Assembly (NCBI GenBank): GCA_030549335.1
Contig: CM060198.1
Coordinates: forward strand, 40,898,353 to 40,962,352
DNA from: Pontederia crassipes
Lineage: Eukaryota; Streptophyta; Magnoliopsida; Commelinales; Pontederiaceae
Direction: 5' to 3'
DNA: 64,000 bases
Shown: positions 11,111 to 64,000 of the stretch, piece after piece
How the letters are laid out: each line of letters opens with the position of its first letter
Position numbering within the stretch: the first letter of the stretch is position 1
Made by a program: the position numbers and the translations under genes
Notes under the pieces: model-generated
The model's input: the letters and a program-made list of their open reading frames with translations, nothing else
Database searches by the model: none
Told to the model about the DNA's origin: nothing

Positions 11111-11512
11111 CCTAGTTAATTTGTTATTTTTTTAATCTAATACATATTAAGTTAATTACTAATTTTTTATAATTACTTGAAACTAATTTATTTTTTATTT
11201 AATTTGATATTTTTAATCTAATACAATGTTAAGTTAATTATTAGTTAATTACTTGAAATTAATCTAATTCCTAATTAATTACTTCAAATTAATCTGATTC
11301 CTAGTTTACAGATGGTTGAGTTAATCATAACGTTCGACATTCTTGGTAATAAAATGAGATTATGAAAAAAATAGACATTAGAAAATGAAAAAAAAATTAT
11401 TAGTATTTGGTACTCAAAATATACATTATGGTCGATTTTAAATACGACCCTTGAAACATGTGATTTTGGACTTCGTAACTTTAAAATCACATGTTTCAAG
11501 TATAAAAATTTA

Positions 11513-14274: not shown

Positions 14275-14368
14275 ATCCCGTAGTTCTTCTAATGACACAA
14301 ACTTGTTACTTTTTTTTATTTATATATGGTTATCGATAATAACACAAGATTGTTACTTTTTTTCAGTC

Positions 14369-16680
14369 ATGGTTACTAGAGGTCGAGCATCTGGGTCATC
14401 TCGCTCTTCCAGACGTTCACTCCAGATAAGTGAGCCATCACGACCACTAGGTATTATACTTATTATCAGTTGCTTATAATAGTTATATTCATTTATTTTA
14501 ATAATGTCAGTTGCTCTGCCATCGACGGAGAACGTAGTCGGATCGTCTCATAGTAGGCGATCCATTGGTGGGTCATGTCCATGTATCACTCCAGGTACAT
14601 GCCACATAGTAGGCGATACAATTTTCTAATTATTTTATTTTTGTGATAGTTGCTCCACCGTTGACGGGTACATAGGCGGGACGCCTCGATCGCACGATGA
14701 TGATCGACATCTCACACTAGGTTATTTTTGGTATATTCCAAAAATTAAATACATGCAATTATTTTAAGTATTTTTTTATGATAGTTGCTACGCAACCGCC
14801 AAGATTACTGGACACTTCACCACATTCTAGCATTGGCAAGCGACATCTTACCTTAGGTGATATATTTATTATTATTGACATTATATTTCTCTATTAATTA
14901 CATTAATCATTTTTTTAATAATGTCAGTTGCTACGCCGCGACTTGTCACATTCTGACGAGCGGACTACCACGGATCATGCAGCGATAGACATCATTCGAG
15001 GTGAGAACATTACTGTATAAATATCAATGATCATTAGTTTAATTTGGTATGACACTAATGATTTATTTTGTATTAGGGCTCGTAGATGATGTTAGACCTT
15101 CTCAGCCTACCCAGTTGTACCGGATGATGATTCCTCTTCGACAATTGAAAGGGATTACACGATAATGGGGTGGTCACCGTGAATAATATTGCTCGATCAT
15201 AAGTTAAATAAGTTGTAGAAATTTTATTATAGTTTTCGTTATCATTAAAAATTAATTCTTCTTTGTAATTTAGAGGACCACTTTCATACCCGTTAGTACC
15301 GTGCGAGATGTCAGTGCTCTCGTTCTTTCCCACTTGCCAAAAGGGGTAGGATCGTAGAAAGATGTCCCAATTCAAGTGTGGGATGACATCTTTCAAGCCT
15401 TTATGGTACGATCTTCTATTTGGGTTACGTAATTTATTTTATATTATTTTTAAGTTACTAAGTTTTAATGTATTATTTAGGAGGCAAATCAGTTTCATCC
15501 GGATCTTAGTTTAGGAATGATCCGGAGAGCTTTTGAGGAGGTGGCTGCGAAATGCCTCCGAAATCGATTGTACAAGTTTCGCAAAGTCATCACGTTTGCT
15601 GGCCTCACTTTGGAGTAGAGCATACAAAGTTGCCCAAGGCTAAGTATTAGGCGCTCAATTTGGGAGTCCTTATGTAGGAAGTGATATATTTATTTTTAAA
15701 TTATTTTCATTAAATTTATAATTTTTTAAAGTCTAAGTATTTGATGTTCATAAAGGACGGATGAACGATGACAAAAGAAATCGAAAAAGGCAAGATTTAA
15801 TTGATTTTCGAAGCCCGAGGCCCACATCCACACAGGGGGGTCAATGGATTTGATGAGCATCGACAGTGCATGGTAATTTACATAGAAATTCAATTAATCA
15901 AACTTCTAACTTATACTTATTTTATAAAATTTGAAACTTTATTATAGGAGGAGAAACAAGGCGCTCCTGTGAACTTTCGCGTAGTCTACGAGGCCACACA
16001 TAAGAGTCAAAAGACCAACGACTTGGTTACGTCCACTGGCTCATAGGCTTCTGGTAAGTCTCATCACATGTTCACTTGGTTGTTGATGTTAGTGCACTAT
16101 TTTTTAAATGCACAATGTTTAAATTTTTTAGGATGAGTATAATCCAAAAATGGCTATAAAGTACGGAGATGATCCGAGTACTCAGCCACCGGGTAATGTT
16201 TCTTGGAAGGGATTCATGTTTTTAATTTATGTGTTTTTTTATACATAATTTATATATTCTTGTATAATTTATTCTTGTATAATTTTTCTATACTTTATTC
16301 TTGTATAATTTTTCTATTTCGTAGAGGACCCTGTTGTTTGGGAGGAGGTGGCCGGCATGACACGAGGAGGATACTTGCATGGCCTCGGCACAGCTGCTCA
16401 GGTACCTAGGAAGAGCGGAGCATATGCAAGCGGTCCATCTGCTCTGAGCTCATCCGTTGCACCTGATATGATGTAGCTATCGCAGCAGCTATCAGAGTAG
16501 CTATCGGAGCAGGTGTCGCAGTAGCTGTCGCAGCAGTTGGCTCCACAATTGCAAGCGATTTAGGGATTGATCCTGACACAAAATCAATCCCCATGAGGCC
16601 ATGGACCGAGCATGTTGGGATCGAACGTCCAGAACAACAACAATAACTCCCAAACCTACGATAGAAACAAACCATGGATA
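14369..16680 (+). pseudogene. CACTA second ORF (Transposase_24/TNPA-like) relic (copy 1)
   Basis: The start codon at 14369 follows a TTTCAG acceptor-like site and opens MVTRGRASGSSRSSRRS. Four short putative exons follow at 14511-14594, 14650-14720, 14785-14856 and 14928-15000. Each starts TTGCT after an AG, and each ends at AG|GT. Later frames (about 15270-16150) include FHPDLSLGMIRRAFEEVAAK, ATHKSQKTNDLVT and PKMAIKYGDDPS, the conserved core of the plant Ptta/En/Spm Transposase_24 family. The 3' end is glutamine- and asparagine-rich (about 16470-16670). Several in-frame stops occur (for example near 15618 and 16045). The family is thought to bind element ends alongside TNP2; that role here is inferred. 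Confidence 0.75.
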
Positions 16681-18560: not shown

Positions 18561-20400
18561 CCTTAAATGATGGACATGTTCTTTTGTCATGTCCACTTTT
18601 TCAACATTTTTCACAAATTCTTTTCTTAGATTCTTTTTGGGACAGAAATTTCAACACCGAATTTAATTCTCCCCACATTTTTTGGTATACACCTTAAATT
18701 CCACACGAAGTGGTCAAATTAACTAGTAGCATTTTGAGTTGCATAAATCTCTCTCGTGTTTGCTTCACTTGAATCCATAACAACATTTCATATCAATGAT
18801 ATAATTTTAGTAAAATGTTCAATAATGAAAAGAAATATTTACCATTATTGTATGCATTGCTACATAAACAATATCTCAAACTTCATTTCCTTGTGGCTTT
18901 ATGTATGCATAAATACAATAAAAAAATTTCAAGGTATATAGTACAGTTTTTGGACCTAAAAAAATGTAGATTTAAAATTATTACCCAACAAAATGTTGGT
19001 GCATAATTTTTCAGCCACCAAAATTATAGAGATTATATTTGGATCCTTTTTGGAACCATAATTCTTCTGAGTTTCGTGTGAATAATTAAATTGACAAATT
19101 AATTTGAAGTGTATTTGGATGGTGTGAAATATAATAATGAGGAACCAAGTAATTGATGTGATAGGAAAAAGTAGATTGGGCCTCTTATAAATTCATAGAA
19201 CTTGATTGACTCGCAACAAATTAACTAGTAGCATTTGAGTTGCATTAATCTCGCTTGTGTCTGTTTCACTTGCATCCATAAATACATTTGCAACGTTAAA
19301 TGCACTTATTTTTTTATAACATCGTCAATCATAGGAACACCGAATTGTAAGTATTTTGTCAAAGTCAAACCCATATCTTGTACTTTCCATAAGTTTCTTT
19401 GCCAACCTAATTTTTGAATGGAGCTTATGAAGTCATTACAAGAGGATGGTTTATCGTAAATTGCATGCGCATTTCTATTCCTCGTGTTTATTGTCCAATG
19501 GTGAAGTACGTATTCCTCGAGTATATACCTCACTCATCTTTTGTGGAGAACGCATAAAATGTGACAACATAATAATCCATCTTGTTCAAATTTTTGCAAG
19601 AATATTTCATATAAATTTGTTCAAAGTGACAAAATTTCACAACATTCTTGACTTCATCAATACTTTGCTCGGGGTAAATTGAGCAAACAAATCTTTATGC
19701 TTCTTTATGTATCTTGTGGGCATACGAAGTCATACATTTTGCATATTCTTCTTGGAACTTGAAAAATATGGCATGTGTATAATTATGACCAGCATGTACC
19801 TCTAATGGGTGTTTCGGAATGTATGCAGGCATGAAGTTCATGGTTTTAAAGTCTTCTTTTTCCTCAAGTCCACGATGAGTCTGAACAGCCATATCATATT
19901 GTTGTACATTTTGTATGGGTATTTTGAAGTTATGGTTTTCATTGACAAAACCATCAAATGATAGTTTACACTCTTTGAGTGGTACAGATACATGCGGTAA
20001 AAGTCTCTTTAAAGTAGAAAGAGATGCATTGTTCGTGCTTGTTGTACATGCCCTCTAATCAATGTCCATGAGGGATATCAAATGCTTCTTTCAAAGAAAT
20101 CCAACCCTCTTCAAGTTCATCTACATTGGATGAATTATATAACCACTTGTTGTAGTCTTCTCTAAGTGTGTCTTGTGCATATAAATCTTGTAGATGAGCC
20201 ATTGCTTTCCTAGGAATGTGCCATGTTCAAAATATATGTTTAGTTTGCGAAAAAAACCCTACATATAGCATTATCCATCGCAATGTCTTTTCGTAATAAT
20301 ATAGATCGGATGCTTTCCATACATGCACTTAGACCATCTTTCAAATAGCCATACAAAAGTCTCTTCAGTCTCGTCTACAAATAAAGCACATCCAATCCCC
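18560..20400 (-). pseudogene. FAR1/FHY3-like (MULE-derived) transposase relic
   Basis: Read on the minus strand from 20400 down: [20 protein letters not shown], then [11 protein letters not shown], then MDNAICRVFSQTKHIF before a stop, then a W-rich helical segment (DYNKWLYNSSNVDELEEGW). Next is a segment typical of FAR1-related proteins (HNYTHAIFFKFQEEY at 19695-19892). A SWIM zinc finger follows at about 19480-19590 (CSCKNFEQDGLLCCHIL, then YILEEYVLHHWT). At about 18590-18620 a zinc-knuckle-like KSGHDKRTCPSF ends the protein. Order and motifs match the MULE transposase core plus SWIM domain. Stops, a frameshift and an insertion at about 18790-19210, bordered by a 70-bp direct repeat (18717-18790 and 19213-19290), show that it is dead. 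The 5' half is cut off where gypsy sequence starts at about 20400. It could be a domesticated host FAR1 family relic or a MULE relic; I cannot tell which. Confidence 0.8.
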
Positions 20401-20402
20401 AA

Positions 20403-21905
20403 ACCTCCCTACAGAATGACACCAGTAGAGATGAAGGAACTAAAGGCACAAGTGCAGGAATTACTAAATAGGGTTTTTATTAGGCCAAGTGTGTTCCCAT
20501 GGGGTGCACCTGTCCTATTTGTGAAGAAGAAGGAAGGGTCACTGAGGCTATGTATTGACTACAGAGTGTTCAAAAAAGTGACCATCAAGAATAAGTACCC
20601 ACTGTCAAGGATAGATGATCTTTCTGATTAGTTGTCTTATGTATTAGTCTTCTCAAAGATTGACTTGAGAAGCAGATACCATCAGCTCAGAGTGGCTGAT
20701 GAGGAAATAGCTAAAACAACCTTCAGATCAAGGTATGACCATTATGAATTTTTGGTTATGCTTTTTGGATTGACAAATGCTCCTGTAGCATTTATGGATT
20801 TGATGAACCGAATATTCAAGCCTCACTTGGATAGGTTTGTGATAGTGTTCATGGATGACATCCTGATGTATTCATCAAGTCCTGAGGAACACTAGAAGCA
20901 CTTAAGGATTGTTCTGGAGATTGTGCGACAACATCAATTGTATGCAAAATTCTCCAAGTGAGTTTTGATTGGAACAAGTGATGTTTGTGGGTCATATAGT
21001 TTCAAAGGAAGGCATTTCTGTGGACCCAGCAAAGGTTGAAGCGGTCATGAATTAGGAAAGACCAAAGACAGTGAGTGAAATAAGGAGTTTTCTAGGATTG
21101 ATCGGCTACTACAAAAAGTTCATCCAAGATTGCACAGGTACATAAGGAGGACCCATAATATAACGACATGAAAGCCTTGTGTGAGAAGGGACACTCAGAC
21201 TATAGGACTAATGAAGATGGAACTAATAGCTTCCAAGGCAGACTGTGGGTACGACAAAGAACTGAAGGAAGAAATTTTGATAGAGTGCCACAAGTCAGAA
21301 TTTGCTATTCACCCAGGAACTACCAAGATGTTCCAGGATCTTCAGAGAACATTTTGGTGGAAGGACATGAGAAGGGAGGTGGCTGAATTCGTGTCTAAGT
21401 GTTTAGACTGTCAACAGGTGATGATTGAACACCAAAAGCCACCAGGACTACTAAATCCACTACCTCTGAAGTGGGAGGAGATCACAATGGACTTCATTGT
21501 AGGTCTCCCAAGGACATAGAAAGGACATGATGCAATAAGGGTCATTGTGGATAGATTGACTACGTCTGCTCACTTTTTACCACATAATGTTAGGCAATCA
21601 ACCGCAAGTATGGTACAACTGTACGTAGATGAGATTATTCGAGTATATGGAATTTCTATTTTCGTTGTATCGGATAGAGACCCAAGGTTCACAGCAAGAT
21701 TCTGGAGAGGATTGCAGCATGCTTTTGGCACAAGACTTCACTACAATACTACCTTTCATCCTCAGAGTGATGGGCAAAGTGAAAGGGCAATCCAGACCCT
21801 AGAGGACATGTTGAGAGCATGTGCTATAGACTGACAAGGCAATTGGGATGATCATCTTGCCTTAGCTGAGTTTGCCTACAATAAAAACTATCATTCCTTC
21901 ATGTG
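20403..21905 (+). pseudogene. Ty3/gypsy pol fragment (RT and integrase)
   Basis: The reverse transcriptase part opens with [20 protein letters not shown], continues with [18 protein letters not shown] and [11 protein letters not shown], and has the catalytic FMDDIL at about 20850. An in-frame TAG lies at 20629 and another after SSSPEEH at 20893. The RNase H region is almost wholly missing (about 21000-21170 is scrambled). The integrase follows: HPGTTKMFQDLQ with CLDCQQ (the HHCC zinc-binding part, 21300-21420), then MDFIVGLPRT, VSDRDPRF and SERAIQTLEDM (D, D and E catalytic positions, 21490-21820). The fragment stops near 21905 with no LTR. The motifs fit a chromovirus. It directly abuts the FAR1-like relic. 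Confidence 0.9.
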
Positions 21906-21941
21906 TGGAAGACTTTGTAGGTGATATTTGGGATCGAGTAG

Positions 21942-33431: not shown

Positions 33432-34325
33432 TAATTTGTAATATCCATGATCTAACCCATATGGGATTCTATATTATATGGTTATAATCAATTGAATATA
33501 TATGTTGTAATATAGATTGTAATATCACGTATTGATATAATAAAAATTTATAAAATTTAATTAAAGCACTAAAGTAGGATAAAAAATAATATTATGATAA
33601 ACCATATTCTCTTATGGTTAACCATGCATGTGATTTGTTAACATTGGATTTAAATCTAATGGACCAATCAAATGTCGCCAAGTGGCATATGGAAAATATG
33701 TGTTTGTAGCAACAATTAATCTATAACATATGTGAATAAATTACATCGATTAAATTATACTATTTTTTATTTAATAAAATTAATCCATCTTATTTAGGGA
33801 TGAAATTGGAGATTTTGAATGTCAATTTTTTATTGGACAAGAATTCTAACTCATGGCATGTATGCTGCCACCAAAACAAGCAGCTTGCCATCTCATGATT
33901 GGGCCATTTTTCCAGCCGACTTACTATGGTGACAAAAATATGGAAAATTTTGTGAGGTTTAATTCTCTCTAGGAAGAACACAAAATTCTTCAGAGAATGA
34001 ATCCTTCTCTGGAGTCCAAAAGAAATTCGACAAGGGCAACTATCAAGGTGATAAATCTAACCCTAGGCTGATAGTTTTCTTCATGAAGTATTCCTTCGAA
34101 TCAATTCTTATTTAAGAATTAAGAAATTTAGTTTAATTTCTCGCCGTCTGAGTCTACTTTTATTGAGCTTGGAAACAACTTAATCAGAAGTCAGAATAAA
34201 GAGTTATCTTCTTGTCTTTAACATACTATCAGTGGAATTAATTGATAATTTATTGAAAACTATATTCAGGTGTTAGGTTTCAATTACAGTTGAAATCAAC
34301 CGAAAAGGATATGTCTGGTGAAAGT

Positions 34326-34333
34326 TATAAATA
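34326..34333 (+). promoter_or_regulatory. TATA box, 5' LTR of element D
   Basis: TATAAATA; the same position in the 3' LTR (about 41770) is also TATAAATA. Confidence 0.5.
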
Positions 34334-34638
34334 GATAATCGAACCTTACTCAATCTGTCAAAATGGAGCTTAGGGCACATTAGGCTAGTAATTGTTAAAT
34401 TTATTATGCTCGGTCCAAAGAGATATAAAAGCTAGAAATTTTATGAGTTGCACGCAATGAAGTAAAAGTTTAGACAAAATTAAAAGTATTAGAACAAGTG
34501 ATGTTTTCTATTTTATATAAATCATAAACCTAAGGTCACTCAGCCTGTCATACGACATGATATGATATGCTTGGGTTATGCGCATGCATTACATCTCATT
34601 ATCATGCATGTGCATTACCCCCTGTCAAGCGATAGTTT

Positions 34639-34826
34639 ACCCTTGTATAGTTGAAAGAATTGTAAGGCCGACAGCTTACCTATGTATAGTTGAAAGACTT
34701 ACAAGGCCGACAGTTTATCCTTGTATAGTTGAAAGACTTACAAGGCCAACCGTTTACCCTTACGTGGTTGAAAAATCTTGTATGGCCGAAAGCTTACCCT
34801 ATACGGTTGAAAGACCATATAGGGAC
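34639..34826 (+). repeat. Hairpin array in the 5' LTR of element D
   Basis: Five units of about 39 bp. Arms are CCTTGTA/TGTAAGG (34641), CTATGTA/TACAAGG, CCTTGTA/TACAAGG (34719 and 34739), CCTTACG/TGTATGG and CCCTATA/TATAGGG (34797 and 34818). Loops share TAGTTGAAAGA or a close variant. Confidence 0.9.
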
Positions 34827-35757
34827 GACCGATATCCCGAATGGGATTTTAGATTGTTTGAAGCTTAGTGCCATGTGAACCAGATTGTGGAATCAGTTTG
34901 AGCCACATTTGAATTCACAGGGGCCACCTCTAGAATCCATCAGTCTTCCCGACAGGGTCGACAGATATCCCGAAAGAGATGCCTCTATGCATGCACATTC
35001 TTCTTGCATACATCCCACTTTAAAGATCATTGCATCTGATGTATTATTGATTGTGATATTGTATAGTTATATGACATGCTTTGATGTGAATGATGTTGTA
35101 ACAATGTTTATATGATTATTTATATATATATGAACAAGTATTGGGTGATATGAGACGTAATGATTTTATTATGACATGTACTGACAGCTCATGCATATAT
35201 GAAAATGGCTTAAGTACATGAACATGTGTTTTGATAAGATAGATTAGGAGAACTCATGTTTTTACAGCAACGGTAAATATGTATCAAACTTTAAAATTCT
35301 TCAAATGATATTATCATTCTTGATCATTTAAATGCTTCATGTTTTGAATAAGTTATAACTTAAATTCTTTTAAGAAATACTATTTTGCCCCTACATACGA
35401 ACTTTTTCTCATGGAGATTATGCATATATATGTACATTTATGTACAATATATATGCATATATTTCCCTGTATTTGGATCCTGCAGGCCAAACGCACGGGT
35501 GGTTGATGCTCATGACAAGTGATGGCACATGGAATTGAGTGTTGGAGGGTTTTCTTTGAGTACATTACTTTGTAATAATATTTCAAGATGTTAGTATTTG
35601 ATATATGAATATTAGAGTTTCTTTATGTGAATAATAAAAAGAAAAGTTTTATTCTACATGAATTCTATTTATCACAATATTTTAGTAGTAGCGATCGGAC
35701 GCTCGAGTAAAATAAAAAAAATGCTTTCGCTGGCTCGAGGGTCCAGGTCGTTATAGG

Positions 35758-35769
35758 TGGTATCAGAGC
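35758..35769 (+). promoter_or_regulatory. Primer-binding site of element D (tRNA-iMet)
   Basis: TGGTATCAGAGC, two bases after the LTR end. This is complementary to the 3' end of plant initiator tRNA-Met. Confidence 0.9.
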
Positions 35770-36719
35770 AGGAGTTCCATGTGTCATGTCATGAGCAATC
35801 ACCCGAAGTGCAAAGATCCAATTATGTGAGTTAGTGTTTGTTTGTATAGATGTCTATTATTGTCCTCTAGATTTTGTAGTGCAATAGTCTACATTAGCAT
35901 ATTGTTTTTAGTGTTGGATGACAATAATAAACCCAACATGGTAGAGTTACGACGATTAGTGGATTCATAGTACACGATCATACTTATGATAACATGTATG
36001 ATGTATATGATATATGATAGAAGATGGCAATAAGGCATTTCATTCAATAGCATAGAATGAGTTACATAAATATGATTGTGTAACTCATATTTAATGTCAA
36101 AGGCAATTTTTGCTATGTATACTATTTTAATGTATAGTATGATATGATATGATTAATTGAAAACTTGATAGGAAGTCAAGGTGTCATGGCCACCAACTAT
36201 CTATCCTACTGTGAGCCTTTGCATACTCTGTAGGTTAGCAAACGAGTTATGTAAATTAGAAAAGGATTACTTTGATTTACTATTATCACTCTATTATGAG
36301 CAACATATGAGTTGACATTGTGGAATTTGGCATGTTCCAACATAAGAAGCTTAACTTGTTATTTAGGGAGCTCCTAGAAAAGTGTATTAGAGTGAGGCCT
36401 CCTCTGATCATCGATCGAGAGCTCAACACAGACCATAGAATTCACTACTCTTGATGTATTGGCTGGAGATTAACGAAAGAGTGATTGGAGGGGGATGCCT
36501 CTTCGATCCACAATTGCGAACTCAAACTCGCATCTCAATATTGCAAATCAATAAGAATGAAGAACATAATTGTTCTTGATAAGTTCATCAGTGTTTACAC
36601 ACTTGCCTTTATTTGAATAGACAATAAGTTATAACCTACAACTACTAATTGTATGATAAATGGAAATTGTGGACTTATCGTAAAGTTATTCCTACAGGAG
36701 TGGCTTGCCATGATAGTTA
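35770..36719 (+). other. Element D leader and decayed gag/protease region
   Basis: The order of parts says gag and protease should be here, but no frame is readable. I see no domain. Confidence 0.45.
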
Positions 36720-37560
36720 CTCTATTGCATATATCCTTAGAGTTACTCCTATTCTAAATTGTTATGACATGGCAACTGAAAAAGTAAAAGAATTGAGAAG
36801 ACAAGTATAAGGACTCTTAGATAAAATATTTGTTCAGTTCCATAGGATTACCGTATGGAACTCTAATCTTAGTGGCTGAGAAGATACGTGAATATCTCAT
36901 ATTGTACATTGTCTATAAATAGTTAAACGAAGTGATGACGAAGAAAAAATATCCTTTAACGATAAGAGATGGCTTGATTGACCAAATGCAAAGTGTAGGT
37001 GTTTATGAAAGATGACCTTATCTTTAGATACTACCCGCTTAATATGAGGAAGTGATATCTTAAAAAAAAACAATTTAGAATACAATAAGGGCATAGTGTA
37101 AACTTCATAAGTTCATTTGGGTTAATCGATGAATTAATTTTCTTTTATGATCGGGTAGCGGCATGTGCATGAAGATAAGTAGAGGCTTATGACAGGAAAT
37201 ACACAATATGTGATTTGAAGCTTCCCACTACTCTAGAGCACCCAAGATTTTGGAGACACCATTCACATGAGCAAAAGTTGAACTATGTACACATTAAGAG
37301 TCAAAAATATGTATTTACATGTAAGTAGTCGAATCCAAGACAAAGAAAAGGGATGAACTGCCTAATGGGCAAACAACTCTATTTTATATCCATCACTAAA
37401 GGTGAATAAAGTAGCAAAAGTATCAGGTAGTGAGCCAACCCTTATAACTAAATTGTCTATTAGAAAAGGGAATACTAAGGTGTAGCAATAAAATTTGTTC
37501 TTAACGACATATATGGGATAGATAAGATCAGTTGTTCACCATTTAGTCCTACACTATGTG
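36720..37560 (+). pseudogene. Element D RT and RNase H relic
   Basis: About 36780-36860 reads ELRRQV, then GLLDKIFVQF. 36920-37010 reads LNEVMTKKKYPLTIRDGLID, which lines up with the [18 protein letters not shown] block of gypsy RT. About 37170-37360 carries decayed RNase H wording (an H-F-x-A-x-K-x-LxT pattern with the THDKSLKYIF-like stretch). Almost every codon run is interrupted. The sequence breaks at 37565 where element C is inserted. Confidence 0.65.
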
Positions 37561-38099
37561 GAAGCTGATGCGTGTAAAATAAGCGCAAATATACTAGCAA
37601 GTATACTAGATCGTATCAAGTAATAAAGAGTGAATAGAGTGTCGAACCCACGAGGACTAATCTAGATTCTTATCTTTCTAACTTAAGGTTAATTGAGAAA
37701 GTAATAAGAATTGATTTGAGATAAAAGTAATCCGAATTGATGACAATCAGAGATAATGATGCATTTAATTAATGTGAGAGATAGTTAGAACTCAGACTTC
37801 GTATCCCTATCATATTCTCTTAATTATCAATAATTAAATATAAACTTTTTGTAGAAAATAAACGGATAAAAGGTATAGGACCCAAAAACTTGAGGACCTA
37901 TCTACCCTAGTAAAGAATAAAATCAAAGCACGTTGAAAACTCAATCCACTTTAATAAATTCTGAACTAAGATGCATTAGTATGAACGGTTGCAAAAACTC
38001 GATCAACTCCAATCTACTTTATCTAAGATGCTTTAAGTTGCAAACCTCCATTTAGTGATATAATTATTAGCAATTAAAACTAATTTACTAACAAAAATA

Positions 38100-38925
38100 T
38101 CAAACTAACAGAACGCGGCCTGGGTCAGAAGGAACTCGGCCCGGGCTGACTCAAAACTTTCTATTCGATAGAAATAATGAAGGAACCCGGCCCGGGTTGT
38201 ATCCTCGGCCCGGGTTCTTCACAAAGAAGAATTCCGATAGATTTCGCCTATAGATTTTATATGAAATTATATGAAATTAATGCAAGAAACTAATAAATTC
38301 AGATTACGCATGAAATTCACATCATAAACATGTTCTCAGAAGTCTAAACAATAAAATATATTAAGAGAAAACTAAAGTTCAACGTAATCTTCATCTAACA
38401 ACTAAATTAATCCATAATCGGAAGAATTAACATCAAATTTGAGGGAGAAAATATAAAATAAAGATTGGAAATTATAAATCAAACTCCCAAGAAGTGGTGG
38501 AGGTCTCTGGAACAAGCTTTGGCCGAAACTATACTCCAAGCGATCGTCCAAAACTACGAAATCTCTACTTCTTTGATTGATTTATAGTGGCGCGCAATAG
38601 AACTTTGTCTCTCATTTCTGGTACGGCTAGGGCTTCAAACTCTAAGATTGCCTCCTCCTTGGCTTCATGGTACATCCATATTTATAGGGGTGGCGGCTTT
38701 TTCGAGTTCTGAGTTGAGTTCGAGATTTAAATCGAAGTTAAAGTCGGCCGAAAAAACACGTGATCTGCCAGTTTGGCTGATTTGTACTAACTCGGGCCGG
38801 GTCTGATCCAACTCGGGCCGAGTTCCGTTCAAATTTTATTTTCGTGCAGAATTCGATTCGGAATTGGATTTTAATGTTAACCCGGTCCGGGTATAATGCC
38901 AGCTCGGCCCGGGATTCTCTTGAAC
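38100..38925. repeat. GC-rich palindromes in the element C LTR
   Basis: AACCCGG-C-CCGGGTT lies at 38184-38198, AACTCGG-G-CCGAGTT at 38810-38824 and ACCCGG-T-CCGGGT at 38880-38892. In the truncated LTR the last is the perfect ACCCGGATCCGGGT (40277-40290). The first two differ by one compensated base pair. Confidence 0.9.
38678..38687 (-). promoter_or_regulatory. TATA box of element C LTR
   Basis: Minus-strand CTATAAATAT, followed by a leader with no features. Confidence 0.5.
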
Positions 38926-39140
38926 TCAATCATATGTGCTCTTTGTGCTCCGTTTTACGTGCTTTTTCGATCTGATCGCTTTGCACTTCTAGAATGATGA
39001 TCCTAAGAATAAAATCAGACAAAAGTGGGCAGCTTTGGACTCAAAAGAAATTAAGAAAATAGATGCATGCAATGGTAAAAACTACAAAAAATAACCTAAA
39101 TGATGCATGTAAAACATGTATAAAAATGCATGCATCAAAT

Positions 39141-39177
39141 TCCCCCAAGCTTGAACTCTTGCTTGTCCTCAAGCAAG
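39141..39177 (-). promoter_or_regulatory. Polypurine tract and AGGA-loop hairpin of element C
   Basis: On the minus strand the hairpin CTTGCTTG-AGGA-CAAGCAAG (39177 to 39158) is followed by about ten bases, then AAGCTTGGGGGAA and the LTR start TGATGC at 39137. Confidence 0.85.
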
Positions 39178-39974
39178 CTTCAAGACAAGACTCAAGAATC
39201 ATAAATGAACCATCATAGTCTCCACTACCATCATTTATATAAGTCCATCACCAAAGTATCTAACCACAATCCATAGCCCAACGTTATAAAATTTCTGGAT
39301 CTTAAACAGTTTAAACTTATTCTAAATCAGCTCCGTGCAAGAAAACATATAGTCTATCAAATAATAGCATTAATGTTGAATGCAAAAAAAAAGTATAGAG
39401 TGAGCTTAATTTTACTATATTCACCTTCTTATTGATTTATAGAATTGATTACTCACGTGCTTCTCCTTATTGCGCAAGGTGGTTCATGTAGCGGGCTTTC
39501 GACCGACGGATCCTAGAGTAGTTTCCCTTAGATCGCCAGGCAAGAATTCTCTACGGATCTAATCACCCGAACACACCCAGGTTCCGGATAACACAATTAT
39601 ACCTTCTTATAACTTTTGGGGTTTAACTAACCCTCTTTCATATTTATTTATTTTAAGCTCACAAAATACTTTAGGCATTCAATAAAAAGGCTACTACCAT
39701 CAAGACATAAAATAAAAAAAAGAAATGAAATGCGAGCATGAACAAGAATCAGTGGTCTAAGTATCCATAATTTTACTTGGCAACATACACTTTTCAAATT
39801 ACCCAATACTAAGGTGATGGTGGATGGTATTTTTGTGATTTTTGAAATTTTTAAATTTTTATGGATTTTCATAAGATGCAAAGATAAAGCAAACATGCAA
39901 TACTGAAATAAACTAAAAGAAAGCAAACATGATGATGCAGTACAATAAGCAAATATGATGCATGAAATGCAAAC

Positions 39975-40010
39975 TCCCCCAAGCTTGAACTAAACACTGT
40001 CCTCAGTGTT
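39975..40010 (-). promoter_or_regulatory. Second AGGA-loop hairpin and purine tract in element C
   Basis: Minus-strand AACACTG-AGGA-CAGTGTT (40010 to 39993) is followed by TTAGTTCAAGCTTGGGGGAG, the same AAGCTTGGGGGA tract as next to the LTR. It may be a second plus-strand primer or a duplicated end. Confidence 0.75.
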
Positions 40011-40085
40011 AGCGAGACAAGATAAGGAGTACAAGATGAAAGACTCAAAAAGATAGAAAAGAAGAAAGAAAAAGACACGACTAGC

Positions 40086-40252
40086 TAGTCCATCTCTGGA
40101 GGTGGTGGAGGTGGTGGATACCGTCCGAAGTAGTCTTGAACCAGTTGCTCAAGGTGATCCTGGCGGTCGCTAAGCTGTCGAAACTGAGCCTGAGTCTCCT
40201 GATGGTGTTGCTGCATCAGCTGGTACTGTCGAAACTGAGCCTGAGTCTCCTG
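40086..40252 (-). pseudogene. C-terminal ORF remnant of element C
   Basis: The minus-strand frame has QETQAQFRQ twice and LEQLVQDYFGRY, then seven prolines and EMD before the stop. The 5' side is lost at the junction with the truncated LTR at 40253. The glutamine-rich, proline-ended form resembles the C-terminus of the extra or gag-like ORFs of non-chromovirus plant elements. The product is unknown. Confidence 0.55.
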
Positions 40253-40552
40253 ATTCGGAATCAGATTTTAATGTCAACCCGGATCCGGGTATGATGCCAG
40301 CTCGGCCCGGGTTTCTCTTAAACTCAATCATATGTGCTCTTTGTGCTCCGTTTTACGTGCTTTTCCGATCCGATCGCTTTGCACTTCTAGAATGATGATC
40401 CTAAGAATAAAATGAGACAAAAGTGGGCAGCTTTGGACTCAAAAGAAATTAAGAAAATAAATAAGAAAATAGATGCATGCAATGGTAAAAACTATGAAAA
40501 ATAACCTAAATGATGCATGTAAAATATGTATAAAAATGCATGCATCAGAAGC

Positions 40553-40796
40553 GTATATGGTGCATTTTATGAATCCATGTCAAGAAAAGATGGATCATGA
40601 CCCATCATATATAATTCAATATGTGAATCTATGAGAACAAATGTCCATGAGTTGAATGGAAAAGCTCAAGTGCTATGATTTATGGTAAACTCTTCATTAG
40701 AAATGGGTGGTATTATGATATTCGAAAAGCTACATGGTAAATCGGATACGGGACATATGGTCAAAATTTATATTTAAGTGATTAATATGATATATC
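40553..40796 (+). pseudogene. Element D integrase C-terminal relic
   Basis: The frame near 40690-40800 keeps an ATW-type chromodomain-end segment (IRKATW, GYGTYGQNLY), as at the end of chromovirus pol. The bulk of the integrase upstream is absent on both sides of element C. Confidence 0.5.
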
Positions 40797-40830
40797 AAAT
40801 TTCGAGGACGAAATTTTTTAAGGGGGTAGA
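40797..40830 (+). promoter_or_regulatory. AGGA-loop hairpin and polypurine tract of element D
   Basis: AAATTTCG-AGGA-CGAAATTT is a perfect 8-bp hairpin at 40797-40816. AAGGGGGTAGA follows at 40820-40830, and the 3' LTR starts at 40832. Confidence 0.9.
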
Positions 40831-40831
40831 A

Positions 40832-43800
40832 TTTAATATCCATGATCTAACCCATATTGGATTCTATATTATATGGTTATAATCAATTAAATATATATGT
40901 TGTAATATAGATTGTAATATCACTTATAAATATAATAAAAATTTATAAAATTTAATTAAATCACTAAAGTAAGATTAAAATAATATTATGATAAAGAATA
41001 TTCTCTTATGGTTAACCGATTTGTTAACATTTAAGTCTAATGAACCAATCAAATGTCGCCAAGTGGCATCTAGAAAATATATGTGTGTAGCAATAATTAA
41101 TATATAACATATGTGAATAAATTACATGGATTAAATTATACTATTTTATATTTAATAATAATTTATCCATCTTAATTAGGGATGAAATTGGTGATTTTGA
41201 ATGTCAAATTTTTATTGGACAAGAATTCTAACTCACGACATGCAAGCTGCCACCAAAGCAAGCAGCTTGCCACCTCATGCTTAGGCCATTTTTCCAACCG
41301 ACTTACCATGGTGATAAAAATATGTAAATATTCATGAGGTTTAATCTTTCTCTCTAGGAAGAACACAAAATTTTTCAGAGAATGAATCCTTCTCCGGAGT
41401 CCTAAAGAAATTCGACAAGGGTAACTAGTCAAGGTGATAAATCTAACCCTAGGCTGATAGCTTTCTTCTTGAAGTGTTCGTTCAAATCAATGTTTCTTTA
41501 AAAATTAAGAAATTTAGTTTCGTTTCACCCCTCTGAGTCTACTTTTATTGAGCTTTGGAATCAACTTAATCAGAAGTCGGTTTAAAGAGTTATGTTCTTG
41601 TCTTTAACATACTATCAGTGTGTCTGCCAAAACTGTTACCCTATTTTGGAAATTATGTAGTAATTTCAATATGAAATGGAATTAATTGATAATTTATTGA
41701 AAAATATATTCAGGTATTAGGTTTCAATTACAGTTGGAATCACCCGAAAAAGATATGTCTGGTGAAAGTTATAAATAAATAATCAAACCTTCCTCAATCT
41801 GTCAAAATGGAACTTAGAGCACATTAGGCTAGTAATTGTTAAATTTATTATGCTCGGTCCAGAGAGATATAAAAGCTAGAAATTTTATGAGTTGCGCCAA
41901 TTAAGTATACATTTATAAAAAATTAAAAGTATTAGAACAAGTGATGTTTTCTATTTAATATAAATCATAAACCTAAGGTCACTCATCCTGTCAGAACATA
42001 GAAATAACATGAAAGTTAGATTGAATGTTAATTTCCTGATAACTAACGATAATGAAATAAAATCTAAAACTTTTAAAGATTGAGGATTCTGTAATATGGA
42101 GTTAAATAAAATTTTTAATGAGTCAATTTTATTATTTATATTAAGATATATGAATTTTACGTCATAAGGTATCAAACCTGTCAAAAAGAAAAGATGTTCG
42201 TGCTAAATAGGGTGACGTTATAGGAATTGCATATTGTAAAAGTATTTATATCATTCAATTTAAAGAGTATGTATGATCCATCTAGTACCATGTCATAGGT
42301 GTTTATGTTGATTCCATGTCTTAATAGTATTATGAACATATATTATTGTTATAGGAAGGAATACTAAGATAAGTAAAAAGGGAGGATGATCCATTGGCCT
42401 AAGTGTAAGAAGGTAGAGGGAGCAAGTTAAAGAAGAGGTATGTAGGTTGGATCCATGTGCTTTTATTGTCTTCCTTGTTTATAAGTTTTAGTCATGATAC
42501 ATGCGACATGAAATTTTATGCATCATCATGAATTCATAAGAAATGTTAAAAGCGAACACTTGTGCAAAGGTTATGTTATGTCTTGTTTCATATGATAATC
42601 AAGAAATTGTTATATGAGTGTAAACAATGTACGAAAAATGAATTGATATGGAATAGACATGAGTAAGTTCTTAAATGTGTTCCTAAAATGTCAATATTAT
42701 CCGTAATTACATCGCTATATGATTATTGCTATTAAGACAATGATACATGATATGATAATTTATAAGACGTCATGATATGATATTATATAACATGATATGA
42801 TATGCCATGCCATGACATGATATGACAGAAAAGAACACAATATAACATGTTACAAGATGACACAATATGATACGACATGATATGATATGCTTGGGTTATG
42901 CACATGCATTACATCTCATTATCATGCATGTGCATTACCCCTATCAGGCGACAGTTTACCCTTGCATAGTTGAATGACTTGCAAGGCCGATAGTTTACCC
43001 TTGTATAGTTGAAAGACTTACAAGGACGACAATTTACCTTTGCATAGTTGAAAGAATTGCAAGGCCGACAGTTTACCCTTACATAGTTGAAAAATCTTGT
43101 AAGGCCGACAACTTACACCTATATGATTGAAAGACCTTATAGGGATGAATGATATCTCGAATGGGATTTTAGGTTGTTTGGAGCTGAGTGCCATGTGAAC
43201 CAGATTATGGAATAAGTGTGAGCCACATTTGAATTCACAACGGCCACCTCTAGAATCCATCAGCCTCCCCGACAGGGTTGATAGATATTTTGAAAGGGAT
43301 GCCTCTAGCTAGTTGGCGATATGACATGTGCATGCATCATTCTTCTTGCATACATCCCACCTTAAAGAGCATGGCATCTGATGCATTATTGATTGTGATA
43401 TTGTATAGTTATATGACATGCTTTGATGTAAATGATGTGGTAACAATTTTTATATATGAACAAGTATTGGGATATGAGATGTTATGATTTTATTATGACA
43501 TGTAGTGACAGCTCATGCTTATATGAAAATGGCTTAAGTACATGAACATCTGTTTTGATAAGATAGATTAGGAGAACTCATGGTTTTACAACAATGTTAA
43601 ATATGTATCAAACTTTAGAATTCTTCAAATGATATTCGTTCTTGATCATTTAAATGCTTCATGTTTTGAATAAGTTATAACTTAGAGTCTTTTAAGAAAT
43701 ACTATTTTGGCCCTACATACGAGCCTTTGCTCATGGAGATTATGCATATATATGTACATTTATGTACAATATATATATATGCATATATTTCCCTGTATTT

Positions 43801-44082
43801 GGATCCTGTGGGTCAAATGCACGGGTGGTTGATGCCCATGACAAGTGATGGCACATGGAACTGAGTGTTGGAGGGTTTTTCTTTGAGTACATTACTTTGC
43901 AATAATATTTCAAGATGTTAGTATTTGATATATGAATATTACAGTTTCTTTATGTGAATAATAAAAAGAAAAGTTTTATTCTACATGAATTCTATTTATG
44001 ACAATATGTTAGTAGTAGCGGTCGGACGCTTGAGTAAAATAAAAAAATTGCTTCCGCTGGCTCGAGGGTCCGAGTTGTTACA
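40832..44082 (+). repeat. 3' LTR of element D
   Basis: It starts TTTAATATCCATG (TG mutated to TT) and ends GGTCCGAGTTGTTACA. At 3,251 bp it is longer than the 5' LTR because it keeps 41988-42866. Confidence 0.9.
42948..43143 (+). repeat. Hairpin array in the 3' LTR of element D
   Basis: Five units of about 39 bp. Arms are CCTTGCA/TGCAAGG (42960 and 42980), CCTTGTA/TACAAGG (42999 and 43019), CTTTGCA/TGCAAGG, CCTTACA/TGTAAGG (43077 and 43098) and CCTATA/TATAGG. Loops keep TAGTTGAA or GATTGAA. CGACAGTTTACC separates the units. Confidence 0.92.
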
Positions 44083-44552: not shown

Positions 44553-44564
44553 TGGTATCAGAGC
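44553..44564 (+). promoter_or_regulatory. Primer-binding site of element H (tRNA-iMet)
   Basis: TGGTATCAGAGC, identical to the site at 35758. Confidence 0.85.
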
Positions 44565-59094: not shown

Positions 59095-59165
59095 AGTAGC
59101 AGTTCAAACTCAATTAAGGTTTTAGATTACTTAATCCAAATAGTCAAGTTTTCCTATTTAACATT
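59095..59165 (-). mobile_element. 70-bp fragment of family F LTR start
   Basis: Its complement matches 24746-24820 (TGTTAAATAGGAAAACTTGA onward). It ends exactly at the TGTT terminus, where CACTA-4 sequence begins. Confidence 0.75.
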
Positions 59166-59240
59166 GTGCTTTTGGACTTCATAACTTCAAAATCACATGT
59201 TTCATGTACAAGAATTTGTTGACATATGGCTTATTATTGT

Positions 59241-62200
59241 CCATTACAAAAATTACAAAGCCATATCGTAGTTGGATTCGTCGTTGGAAGGATAAATGTG
59301 GCGTTATAACAGAAGAATATAAGGATGATGTTGATGAATTTATTAATGTGGCATATCAAAATAAAGGTGATGCTTCTTCATAAGGAGAAATTTTATGTCC
59401 ATGTCGGAAGTGCAAATGTTATCAGTGAAAAGTAAGATATTATGTGCAGAAGGATTTTACTAACATACACAAATTGGTTCTTTCATGGTGAAGAAAGATG
59501 GGCTAAAGAGACAACTAATGTAGATACCAATGTGGGCGAGTCGAGCAATCCGTACAGGGATGTGATATGAGATGCAATGTTAGGAGAATTTGTTTGTGAA
59601 ACATTGATTGAAGAAGACCCGAATCCTTCGGCTTCTAAATTTTATAATCTTCTCGAAGAAGCAAACGAAGCTTTATGGGATGGATGCATGAAGCAAACTA
59701 CACTTTCTATAGTGTCACAACTAATGAACTTGAAATCAGAATTTAATATGAGCGAAAGTTATTTTGACCGAATTATTGCCGTCATTAAGAGCATGCTTCC
59801 AACTTTAGAGAAATTACTGAGAAATTTTTACAAGTACAAAAGATTGATGAGAGATTTAGGGTTGGAATATCAGAAGATTGATGTATGTCACAATCATTGT
59901 ATGTTGCATTGCAAGGAAAACAACTCACTTGTGAGTTGTTCTATTTGTGGCGAGCCAAGATTCAAGCCGAGAAAGAATTCTCAAAATTCAAAAAAAATGT
60001 GACAAATGCAGTATTCAGATACTTTCCCATTGTTCCAAGATTGCAATGGCTATTTCTTTTTTAGAAAACTGCATCATTTATGAGGTGGCATAGAGAAGGG
60101 GCACGTGATGATCAAAATTCCATTACACATCCTTCATATGTTAAGGCATGGAAACAATTTGATGCACTTCATCTGGCTCTTTCAGCAGAATCACGCAATG
60201 TTAGATTAAGATTTTGCACCAATGGCTTCAACCCATTTGGCTCATCAAGTACTGCTTATTCATGTTGGCCGATTTTTGTGACACCTTATAATTTGCCCCC
60301 AAGCATGTGTATGAGATGATAAAAGATATTGCTTCCTTGTATAATCCCAGATCCTCGATCTCCTAATAAAACTTTAGATGTTTACTTAAGACCTTTGATT
60401 GATGAACTCAGAATGTTGTGGGAGGATGGCGTGGTTACCTATGAAAAATCTTCCAGCATATGAAATGTTGAGTGGTTGGAGCACAAAGGGTAAACTTGCT
60501 TGTCCCATATGTGGAAAGAATACAAATTTATTTTATTTGAAAAATTGTAGAAAAGTTTGCTGGTTTGATTGTCATAGGATGTTTTTGCCATTGGAGAATC
60601 CAATGCATCGCGATCAAAACTCATTTAAAAAGAATACAACCGAGAACACATTGCCTCCAAATCATTTGACGGGACAAGAATTGCTAGAGCAAGTAAACAA
60701 GCTTAATGAAGTCTCATTCAGATTGAAGGCTAGTTCTTACAAGCAAATTGGATTTGGAAGTGAACATAATTGAGAGAAAAGAAGTATTTTTTTGGAGTTG
60801 CCTTATTGGTCTTCAAACTTGGTACATCATGACTTGGATGTCATGCATGTGGAGAAGAATGTATTTGACAACATCTTCAACACTATTATGGATGTTAAAG
60901 GAAGAACAAAAGATAGCATACAAGCACGCAAAGACGTGAAAGTCATATGCAGAAGACTAGAGATAGATATCATTCATCCTCAAAATGGTAAATGCAAAAA
61001 GCCAAAAGCTACTTATGTCTTAAGCAATGATGAAAGAAAAGTGGTTTTCGAATGGGTCAAGCAATTGAAATTCCTCGATGGATATGTATCAAACATATCT
61101 CATTGTTTTAACTTGGAAAATGAGAAAAAACATGGGAAGAAGAGTCATGATTGTCATATTTTTATGCAAAGGCTGCTTCCAATTGCCTATAAAGAACTTT
61201 TGCCAAAGGCCATTTGGGAAGTTTTAATAGAGTTATGTATGTTTTTTAAAGAGCTTTGTACATCCATCATTCGGGAAGAAGACATCTCTCGGTCAGAGAC
61301 TTCTATTGTGATTAACGTGTGCAAGGCTGAGAAGATATTTCCATATTCTTTCTTTGATGTGAAAGAGCACTTGATTGTACATCTTCCATATGAAACAAAA
61401 GTTGCAGGTCCGGTTAAATGTCGATGGATGTATCCTTTCAAAAGGTGCATGTTATGTTTGACAAGGAAGGTGAAGAATAAGGCGAAGATTGAAGGCTCTA
61501 TATGTGAAGCATATTTCATTGAGGAGATGTCAAACTTCACTTCAAAGTACTTTGAACCACACATACAATCTCGACACACCCAAGTTCCAAGAAACGATCA
61601 TAGCAGTGAAAGAAAAGTTCACATGAATACTTTATCCATCTTCAAGAACCCAAGCCGGCTTCTTGGTATAGGACGCAAAGTTGTCTTGAGTGACAGTGAT
61701 CTCACCGCCCTTGAGAATTATGTCCTTGCAAATTGTACGATGTGACACCGTATCTCGAATAAGATAATTTATTTTAACACGTTATATAATTTAAAATTAA
61801 TCATTGTTATGTGATTTTATTAATGGACAACTATGAATTCAGGAAATTCGAAGAATTACAGCGAGAAATCAATCCGTTTGTTTCAGATGATGAATTATTG
61901 AAATTAAGAGATGAACATTTTGCCGATTGGTTGAGATGTGAAGTGAGAATTCTTTCCGATTGTTCATAATTATTGCTGTCATCTATAACTTTTAATAAAG
62001 TTTTAGTTATTTTTCTTGTAGGTCATTAATGGCTCAGTCATAGATTTAAAAATTCGATATTTGGGTCATGGGCCGAAGATATAATTTCTTAGCTACTGTA
62101 GCGTCATAGTTAGTGGATATAAATTTCCATACAAAATAATATAACCGATAACATTCAACTGTTAATAACGGCATATGTGTTCTAGGAAGCATGTACGGAG

Positions 62201-62768
62201 ATAACGACTTCGATTACTACGATGTTATAGAAGACATCATAGAATTGTCTTATTTAGGAAAATTGAACAAGTCGTGGTGCTAAAATGTCATTGGTTCGAT
62301 CTAGAGAAAGGAGTTCGGATCGATCAAAAGTTTAAATTGGTGGATATTAACCCTCGATCGAGACTTCAGTCATACGATCCATTCGTATTGGCGGAACAAG
62401 AGCAACAAGTGTACCACACTAAGTATCCTTCGAAAAGAACCAAGGACGAATGGTGGGCGTCATGCAAAGTGAGAAGTAGACTATTCTTAGCAGAAACAAT
62501 GGTAGATGATAATGAAACATCATCTGTGTATAATGATGTGCTTGTAGATGATTACTATCAAGAACATCGAGTGAATGAGACAATTGATGTAGCTGATGGA
62601 GTTGAGAATATTCAATTAGCTAATGACACTGAGGCAATGGAAGAGTTCAATTCAAAAGACCTCTTAGAAGTGAACTTTGACAATTTCATTGACGATGAAT
62701 CGAATGAAGATTATAGCGATGACGACGAAGATGATGAAAATGAATCAGAATACGAAACAAGCGAATGA
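59241..62768 (+). pseudogene. CACTA TNP2-type transposase relic (copy 4)
   Basis: The N-terminal domain is decayed (59265-59440, stop near 59382). Readable blocks follow. 59577-60002 has ETLIEEDPNPSASKFYNLLE and the zinc-like CHNHCMLHCKEN with CSICGEPRFK. 60080-60319 has MRWHREGA and FNPFGSSSTAYSCWPIF (Transposase_21). 60399-60773 has LSGWSTKGKLACPICGKN. A 317-codon frame at 60792-61745 runs from ELPYWSSNLV through HVEKNVFDN into the DUF4218 block (SHDCHIFMQRLLPIAYKELL, HLIVHLPYETKVAGPVKCRW, EGSICEAYFIEEM). The DUF4216-type end (CHWFDLEKGVRIDQKFKLVD) and acidic tail end at 62768. Stops at about 60320, a lost segment near 60440 and others make it inactive. It is the fuller of the two copies. 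Confidence 0.88.
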
Positions 62769-62861
62769 ATCTCGTAGTTATTATAATGACACAAGCTTGT
62801 TACTTTTTTCAGTTATATATAGTTACTAATAATAACACAAGTTTGTTACTTTTTTGCAGTC

Positions 62862-64000
62862 ATGGTTACTAGAGATCGAGCTTCTGGGTCATCTCGCTCT
62901 TCTATGCATTCACTCCAGATGAGTAAGCCATCACGACCACCAGCTATTATATTTATTGTCAGTTGCTTATTTATATTTACTTATAATAGTTACATTCATT
63001 TTTTTAATAATTCAATCACTTCGCCGCGGATGGGGCACGTAGCAGGATCGTCGCATAGTAGGCGATCCATTGGTAGGTCATCTCCATGTATCACTCCAAG
63101 TACATGTCACATAGTAGGCGATACATAGTAAGCAATATAGTTTTCTAATTATTTTATTTTTTGTGACAATTGCTCCACCATCGACGGGGCACATAGTCGG
63201 GACGTCTCGATCGCATGACGACGATCGACATGTCACACTAGGTTATTTTTTGTGTATTCCATAAATTTAAATACAAGCAAGTATTTTAAGTGTTTTTTTA
63301 TGATGACAGTTGCTACGCCACCGCTGAGATTACCAGACTCTTCACCACATTCTAGCGTTGGCGAGCGACATCATACCCCAAGTGATATATTTATTATTAT
63401 TAAAATTATATTTCTCAATTAATTACATTAATTATTTTTTAATAATGTCAGTTGCTACGCCGTCGACATCAAAAGCACCCGGCTTATCACATTCTGACAA
63501 GCGGACTATCACGGATCATGCAGCGATAGACATCACTCGAGGTGAGAACTTTATTGTACATATATCAATTATCACTAGTTTATTCGGTATGACATTAATG
63601 ATTTATTTTGTACTATGGCCCGTAGATGATGTCAGACCTTCTTAGCCTACACCAGTTGTACCGGGTGATGACTCTTCGACAGATGAAGAGAGATCACACG
63701 ATAATTGAGTGGTCACCTTGAATAATATTGCTCAGTCATAACTTAAATAAGTTGTAGAAATTTTATTATAGTTTTGCTTATCATTGAAAATTAATTCTTC
63801 TTTGTAATTTGCAGGACCACTTTCATACCCGCTAGTACCATGAGGGATGTCATTGCGCTTGTTTGTTCCCACCTACCGGAAGGGGTAGGATCGTGAAAAG
63901 ATGTCCCAATTCAAGTGTAGAATGACATCTTTTGGACCTTTATGGTAAGAACTTTTTGGGTTACACAATTGGTTTTATATTATTTTTAAATTACTAAGTT
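62862..64000 (+). pseudogene. CACTA second ORF relic (copy 4, partial)
   Basis: It starts MVTRDRASGSSRSSMHS. The same chain of short TTGCT-starting exon-like blocks as at 14.5-15.0 kb follows (about 63018-63112, 63171-63240, 63312-63380 and 63451-63540). The last block reads VATPSTSKAPGLSHSDKR. Some splice donors are changed (CAAG|TA and CAAG|TG). It continues past the window. Confidence 0.7.

Follow-up and report, generated by a model that had tools for sequence, protein, structure and literature searches.

Why should three hairpins with wholly different stems close on the same four-base loop, each a few bases upstream of a run of guanines? The question is raised by a 64,000-nucleotide stretch of the Pontederia crassipes genome (contig CM060198.1, positions 40,898,353 to 40,962,352; hereafter the window), in which two nested long terminal repeat (LTR) retrotransposons, here called C and D, carry three hairpins with the loop AGGA beside polypurine tracts (PPTs). 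The three hairpins are real, beyond chance, and they are samples of a wider feature. The hairpin and the PPT downstream of it are best read as one cis-acting module of plant Ty3/gypsy LTR retrotransposons, composed of a stem of free sequence, mostly 6-11 bp, a loop AGGA (sometimes GGGA) and a G-C closing pair. A fixed loop, a paired stem of free sequence and a G-rich purine tract 10-18 nt on were all found. The bearers are the terminal PPTs of Tekay-type, Athila-like and TRIM-like elements (TRIM, terminal-repeat retrotransposon in miniature) and the internal PPTs of Athila-like elements.

An initial annotation, made from the letters of the window, had reported the three hairpins with their G-C closing pairs. 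Its coordinates proved exact (Table 1), with perfect stems of 8, 8 and 7 bp, and GGGGG does follow each of them, at gaps of 5, 11 and 12 nt from the hairpin end. The hexamer GAGGAC, made up of the loop and its closing pair, is not itself enriched in the window (20 copies against 13.95 ± 3.93 expected, with 10 of 100 shuffles reaching 20); what is non-random is its pairing and its location. Stems of 7-8 bp flank only three of the 20 copies, the other 17 having stems of 1-3 bp, and GGGGG lies close downstream of these three long-stem copies alone. Among the 17 short-stem copies, GGGG occurs within 54 nt only at position 53582 (stem 1, purine run from 32 nt on). Conversely, the window holds 33 perfect hairpins with a 4-nt loop and a stem of at least 7 bp, and GGGGG follows within 25 nt in these three alone; a hairpin combining both properties appeared in none of 60 dinucleotide shuffles of the window.

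The linkage extends to the rest of the genome sample, which comprised 164 contiguous kb around the window and 60 kb of spaced samples, together 224 kb of a 1.13-Gb genome. The 164 kb contain 57 copies of GAGGAC, 45 with stems of at most 3 bp and 12 with stems of at least 5 bp, and a G-rich purine tract lies downstream of all 12 of the latter. Over the whole 224 kb (78 copies), GGG stands 6-26 nt on in 11 of the 12 copies with a stem of at least 5 bp, the twelfth having GGAGG in its place, versus 10 of the 66 with shorter stems. A scan unbiased as to the loop yielded 600 perfect hairpins with a 4-nt loop and a stem of 6 bp or longer, of which 18 have GGGG 6-26 nt past the closing pair; GAGGAC closes 8 of these 18, the runner-up 2. 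Neither in this sample nor in the shuffled windows was paired GAGGAC equally common away from PPTs, the outcome that the initial annotation had named as fatal to its proposal. When sites in the 164 kb were chosen by their PPT instead (G-runs after AAGCTT or AAGATT), the hairpin core was present at 10 of 11, in some as AGGGAC or GGGGAC or with a mismatch. In Athila-like elements both the terminal and the internal PPTs have it.

Sites chosen by their pol gene gave the same picture. Plant pol proteins were found through the integrase piece of a decayed element of the window, and ten of these, once aligned, pointed to three plant contigs (L121, L122 and L123) in bacterial assemblies. All three have a hairpin between pol and the PPT: 9 bp with the loop AGGA in L121, 7 bp with GGGA in L123 and, judged by eye, 7 bp with a three-base loop in L122. 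The assemblies are filed as Mycobacterium sp. and Labilibacter sediminis, where these plant retrotransposon contigs represent contamination. For Tekay-type elements, one of these pol proteins was compared with the genome from which the window comes, 46 candidates were scored and 20 3' ends were taken, which amount to about seven families, many of them near-identical. The core stands before the PPT in 20 of 20, 21-32 nt past the pol match, and 18 have perfect stems of 6-8 bp; the imperfect ones show a C-A mismatch (L172) or a GGGA loop with a U-G pair (L174). So short a distance from pol would suit a signal for the fate of the element RNA, acting in 3' end formation, stability, export or translation, but Athila-like hairpins lie far from pol and no LTR follows the internal copy, and we consider such a role improbable.

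Copia elements served as a control. GAGGAC was absent from all 12 Copia 3' ends (701 bp each, sampled from 150 RVT_2 matches). A clear PPT and LTR start were recognised in only three of them (L188, L189 and L199), none with an upstream hairpin of more than 4 bp; in L194 and L196 a purine tract is preceded, at 14-16 nt, by a 6-bp hairpin with a different loop. Further relatives were sought in viral contigs, where a PPT pattern gave no match and two protein scans no confirmed relative, and by Tblastn, which returned three distant non-plant records from plasmids and none from phages. Athila-like pol matched, in the two contaminated assemblies, only the contigs already known and C322 of the same set. 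The initial annotation had suggested that similar GAGGAC strings stand before PPTs in other plant elements, and this is borne out by the pol-chosen and genome-sample sites.

Is the stem conserved as a paired structure? Alignment A3 comprises 22 rows and excludes L122 (shorter by one base), L172 and several near-duplicates. In it 92.0% of cells are paired, a percentage that is raised because the rows of A2 and A3, pol-chosen ones excepted, were picked at PPTs for a hairpin-like core. The covariation score is 0.900, compared with 0.245 ± 0.035 when the partners are shuffled and a maximum of 0.244 when they are slid; an earlier 20-row set gave 0.878 against 0.245 shuffled and at most 0.261 slid. 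None of 500 shuffles reached the A3 values for percentage paired, cells changed on both sides or score. Two other measures were not above the shuffles, the pairs changed on both sides (7 of 8, reached by 281 of 500) and the number of pair types (reached by 168 of 500). In the ten distinct pol-chosen rows, 73 of 80 cells are paired, against a mean of 65.3 and a maximum of 72 in 2000 shuffles. The fixed loop on free but paired stems, which the initial annotation had read from three examples, is upheld by these scores and by the pol-chosen rows, and we regard a conserved paired structure as almost certain.

A covariance model built from A3 found 18 PPT sites in the 224 kb at E ≤0.0079 (14 training rows and 4 new) and one match elsewhere than at a PPT site, at E 0.0097; its best E on 332 kb of controls, made up of 12 Copia ends and 25 phage loci, was 0.017. 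The phage loci were taken for containing TTTCGAGGACGAAA, from at least 120 stretches with the hairpin 14-mer. Rfam gave no match at the hairpins within 38500-41500, the single sub-threshold match, to SNOR75 (22.8 bits vs 50), lying elsewhere.

Such a structure might have no function at all, if shared ancestry were combined with mutation that continually restores palindromes to perfection. Members of one family are indeed near-identical, and the Tekay-type stems are similar and A/T-rich. However, the internal and terminal hairpins of C have different stems on near-identical flanks in one element, loop and distance are fixed across lineages, and the sample is otherwise without such palindromes; we give this explanation hardly any credence. 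Equally remote, in our judgement, is a double-stranded DNA palindrome recognised by integrase or a host factor: the symmetry is the same in DNA, but the internal copies lie away from the element ends, and the free stem sequence leaves no base-specific dyad site.

The ends of C and D were set by eye, and the lineage names, Tekay for D and Athila for C, are those we take to apply, the analysis itself giving kinship and not names. The initial annotation had C and D as different families nested in opposite orientations. The nesting stands, but C is a single element with two of the hairpins, one by its terminal and one by its internal PPT, so that the window alone samples two families and not three. 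Element D has a tRNA-Met type primer site and the LTR start TGTAA, and its pol is only a weak remnant (36676-37012, 32% identity, E 2e-7). The 5' LTR remnant of C measures 296 bp, so that the element has lost its primer site, its pol and the greater part of its 5' LTR; the extra internal PPT is present and the element's own pol absent. A neighbouring element with the same hairpin pair and the LTR start TGATGCATGC does have pol.

Table 1. Hairpins, polypurine tracts and host elements in the window (positions count from the first base of the window)
Feature	Position	Strand	Details
Element D hairpin	40797..40816	+	AAATTTCG-AGGA-CGAAATTT, 8 bp; covariance-model E 2.2e-6, training row
Element D PPT AAGGGGG	40820..40826	+	3' LTR start 40832
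Element C terminal hairpin	39158..39177	-	CTTGCTTG-AGGA-CAAGCAAG, 8 bp; covariance-model E 1.7e-7, training row
Element C terminal PPT, G-run	39142..39146	-	LTR start 39137
Element C internal hairpin	39993..40010	-	AACACTG-AGGA-CAGTGTT, 7 bp; covariance-model E 7.4e-8, training row
Element C internal PPT, G-run	39976..39980	-	no LTR after
Element D, Tekay-type	33437..44082	+	target-site duplication TAATT; 5' LTR 33437-35755; primer site 35758-35769; 3' LTR 40832-44082
Element C, Athila-like, nested in D	37566..40547	-	target-site duplication GAAGC; 3' LTR 37566-39137; 5' LTR remnant 40252-40547

Several other features of the window were seen in passing. The 3' LTR of D contains about 0.88 kb (about 41994-42869) without counterpart in the 5' LTR, probably an insertion, and both D LTRs contain short tandem repeats of about 39 bp (34619-34836 and 42938-43155). 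A second tRNA-Met type primer site, at 44553-44564, about 470 bp past the end of D, perhaps belongs to another element. A decayed Ty3/gypsy pol with several stops and up to 71% identity to plant proteins lies at 20386-21921 (+). Two repeat copies, 85-90% identical, at 11455-15464 and 59160-64000, carry open reading frames that resemble CACTA (TNP2-type) transposase.

The distance between hairpin and LTR is nearly constant. At 22 distinct sites with a named LTR start string, the closing C and the 3' LTR are 25.0 ± 1.6 nt apart: 25 nt in most Tekay-type families (22 in D and L174), 27 in Athila-like and 22-26 in TRIM-like ones. For the base of the stem the distance to the LTR is 19.3 ± 2.7 nt, with two of the 22 values coming from hairpins without a perfect stem. 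The PPT sequences in between vary by family (AAGGGGGGTAGAG, AAGGAGGTTATGA, AAGGGGTTTATAA) and keep their length. Part of the constant spacing could also come from shared descent without insertions or deletions. The module also occurs in a TRIM-like tandem array just upstream of the window (L133:3244-4353), which has four consecutive units. Each unit combines an LTR-like repeat (about 172-182 bp, lengths taken by eye) with a short internal region (97-110 bp), whose only recognisable features are a GGTATCAGAG-like primer site, the hairpin and the PPT. The closing position is G-U in two of the four hairpins, one of which also has a changed loop. Retention of the hairpin in so reduced a unit points to a signal required in cis.

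The hairpin might instead be a packaging signal, with the zinc knuckles of Gag binding the AGGA loop, either to select the genomic RNA or to use it as a chaperone site at the 3' end. The packaging hairpin stem-loop 3 (SL3) of human immunodeficiency virus type 1 (HIV-1) has a GGAG loop bound by Gag zinc knuckles. The AGGA hairpin is similar in its short stem and exposed G-rich tetraloop, and adjoins a PPT instead. A fixed purine loop on a free stem does resemble a protein-bound loop, and a non-autonomous TRIM-like unit has retained it. Packaging, however, requires neither a near-fixed distance to the LTR nor a copy at an internal PPT, and all 12 copies of GAGGAC with a stem of at least 5 bp in the 224 kb lie by PPTs, none of them near a primer site or leader. 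We regard packaging as unlikely, and a function tied to the PPT as probable.

Taken as a whole, the interpretation in the initial annotation holds as regards the structure, the PPT link and the presence in several lineages. Of its three guesses at a function, a part in making or protecting the plus-strand primer fits best and 3' processing poorly, since no LTR follows the internal PPT; the third, a mark on the genome RNA, retains some probability. Plus-strand priming is favoured because the internal PPT also has the hairpin, the LTR distance is nearly fixed and the TRIM-like unit keeps the hairpin. This role, which we infer from the observed structure and PPT linkage, carries moderate weight. 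Reverse transcriptase copying the genomic RNA would cross the LTR and the PPT and then reach the stem. Stalling there might position RNase H (ribonuclease H) near the PPT/LTR junction, and a cut at the junction would yield a primer with the correct 3' end and so fix the LTR terminus used for integration. The AGGA loop may add a contact to reverse transcriptase or to the Gag nucleocapsid. The RNase H cut of HIV-1 falls 18 bp behind the polymerase site, and it has been suggested that pausing permits the PPT-U3 cut (PMC3185654); the distance of 18 bp is also given in PMC5766924. By analogy, a stem base about 19 nt from the junction could provide that pause. That stalling at the stem sets the PPT/LTR cut is a possibility that we put somewhat below an even chance. 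Scarcely firmer, though broader, is our tentative proposal that the hairpin is an RNA element of the plus-strand origin in plant Ty3/gypsy retrotransposons generally, marking for reverse transcriptase where the primer is made; it would be common to chromoviruses and Athila, stand at internal PPTs as well, and be among the very few signals that miniature non-autonomous elements retain.

Several observations weigh against a priming signal of this kind. The active sites of the Ty3 enzyme lie about 13 bp apart, not 18-19 (PMC5371799), which weakens an exact 18-bp RNase H ruler, and the spacing does not clearly reflect stalling at the stem base, because the standard deviation is smaller for the loop-to-LTR distance (1.6) than for the stem base (2.7). 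The authors of a structural study of HIV-1 and simian immunodeficiency virus (SIV) considered RNA structure an unlikely modulator of PPT priming (PMC3616985). One terminal PPT among the 11 PPT-chosen sites in the 164 kb is without a hairpin. As RNA, the hairpin core folds at -3.2 to -15.4 kcal/mol, several stems being weak, and none of six folds was unusually stable (z 1.08 to -1.84). In these z-score folds, the hairpins of L121 and L122 fall outside the best fold; in 80-nt folds the hairpin is retained in 20 of 22 sites (not in TR6395 and TR5856).

The anatomy is equally compatible with a barrier or guard. The stem, as RNA or as minus-strand DNA after RNA removal, would then keep the PPT primer from being displaced, or halt run-through synthesis begun at primers upstream, without timing the cut. 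At the internal PPTs the PPT itself may lie within an outer stem. This outer stem, formed by the PPT and an upstream pyrimidine tract, is strong at the internal PPTs of groups Ai and Ai2, where 2 to 18 of 200 shuffles do as well, and in At64964, At17787 and L123 it was equalled by 5, 8 and 7 of 200 shuffles. As a general feature, however, it is not supported, 3032 of 20000 family permutations being as good. Nor do wobble-type changes, of which we counted by eye three of each kind, separate RNA from minus-strand DNA. A barrier thus appears unlikely, marginally more so than packaging. At the internal PPTs at -69121, -30954, -9154, -18774 and -40653 (relative to window base 1), the pyrimidine tract can pair with the PPT around the hairpin.

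Among the papers listed by searches of an open-access library we recognised no description of such a hairpin at plant Ty3/gypsy PPTs, subscription papers and supplements being outside the search and prior print possible. The data suggest that the AGGA-loop hairpin is a so far unrecognised signal aiding the copying of plant Ty3/gypsy elements. A structured signal outside the PPT, common to abundant plant repeats, would open the question to direct test, and the covariance model could help annotation, for 3' LTR starts and for reduced elements such as TRIMs.

The closest known structure is the inverted repeat of Sireviruses, which likewise accompanies the terminal PPT in LTR retrotransposons of plants (PMC2829016). 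As described there, that repeat has the PPT in its loop, its left arm adjoining the PPT, its right arm inside the LTR and arms averaging 19-28 bp, and upstream PPTs are without it (PMC2829016). The AGGA hairpin differs in having both arms upstream of the PPT (3 of 3 window hairpins) and a fixed loop, and in occurring also at the internal PPT of C and related elements; with the PPT outside its loop and a copy at upstream PPTs, we rejected it as a Sirevirus-type repeat. Athila4 and Calypso have one extra PPT, between pol and the 3' LTR (PMC2829016). This is the same second PPT as that found here, and the passages of PMC2829016 that describe it mention no hairpin. In the HIV-1 and SIV structures determined by selective 2'-hydroxyl acylation analysed by primer extension (SHAPE), as they are presented in PMC3616985, the G-rich part of the PPT is itself paired and the authors doubt a role in priming; likewise, one motif is found there at both the terminal and the internal (central) plus-strand primer sites, just as the AGGA hairpin accompanies both kinds of PPT in Athila-like elements.
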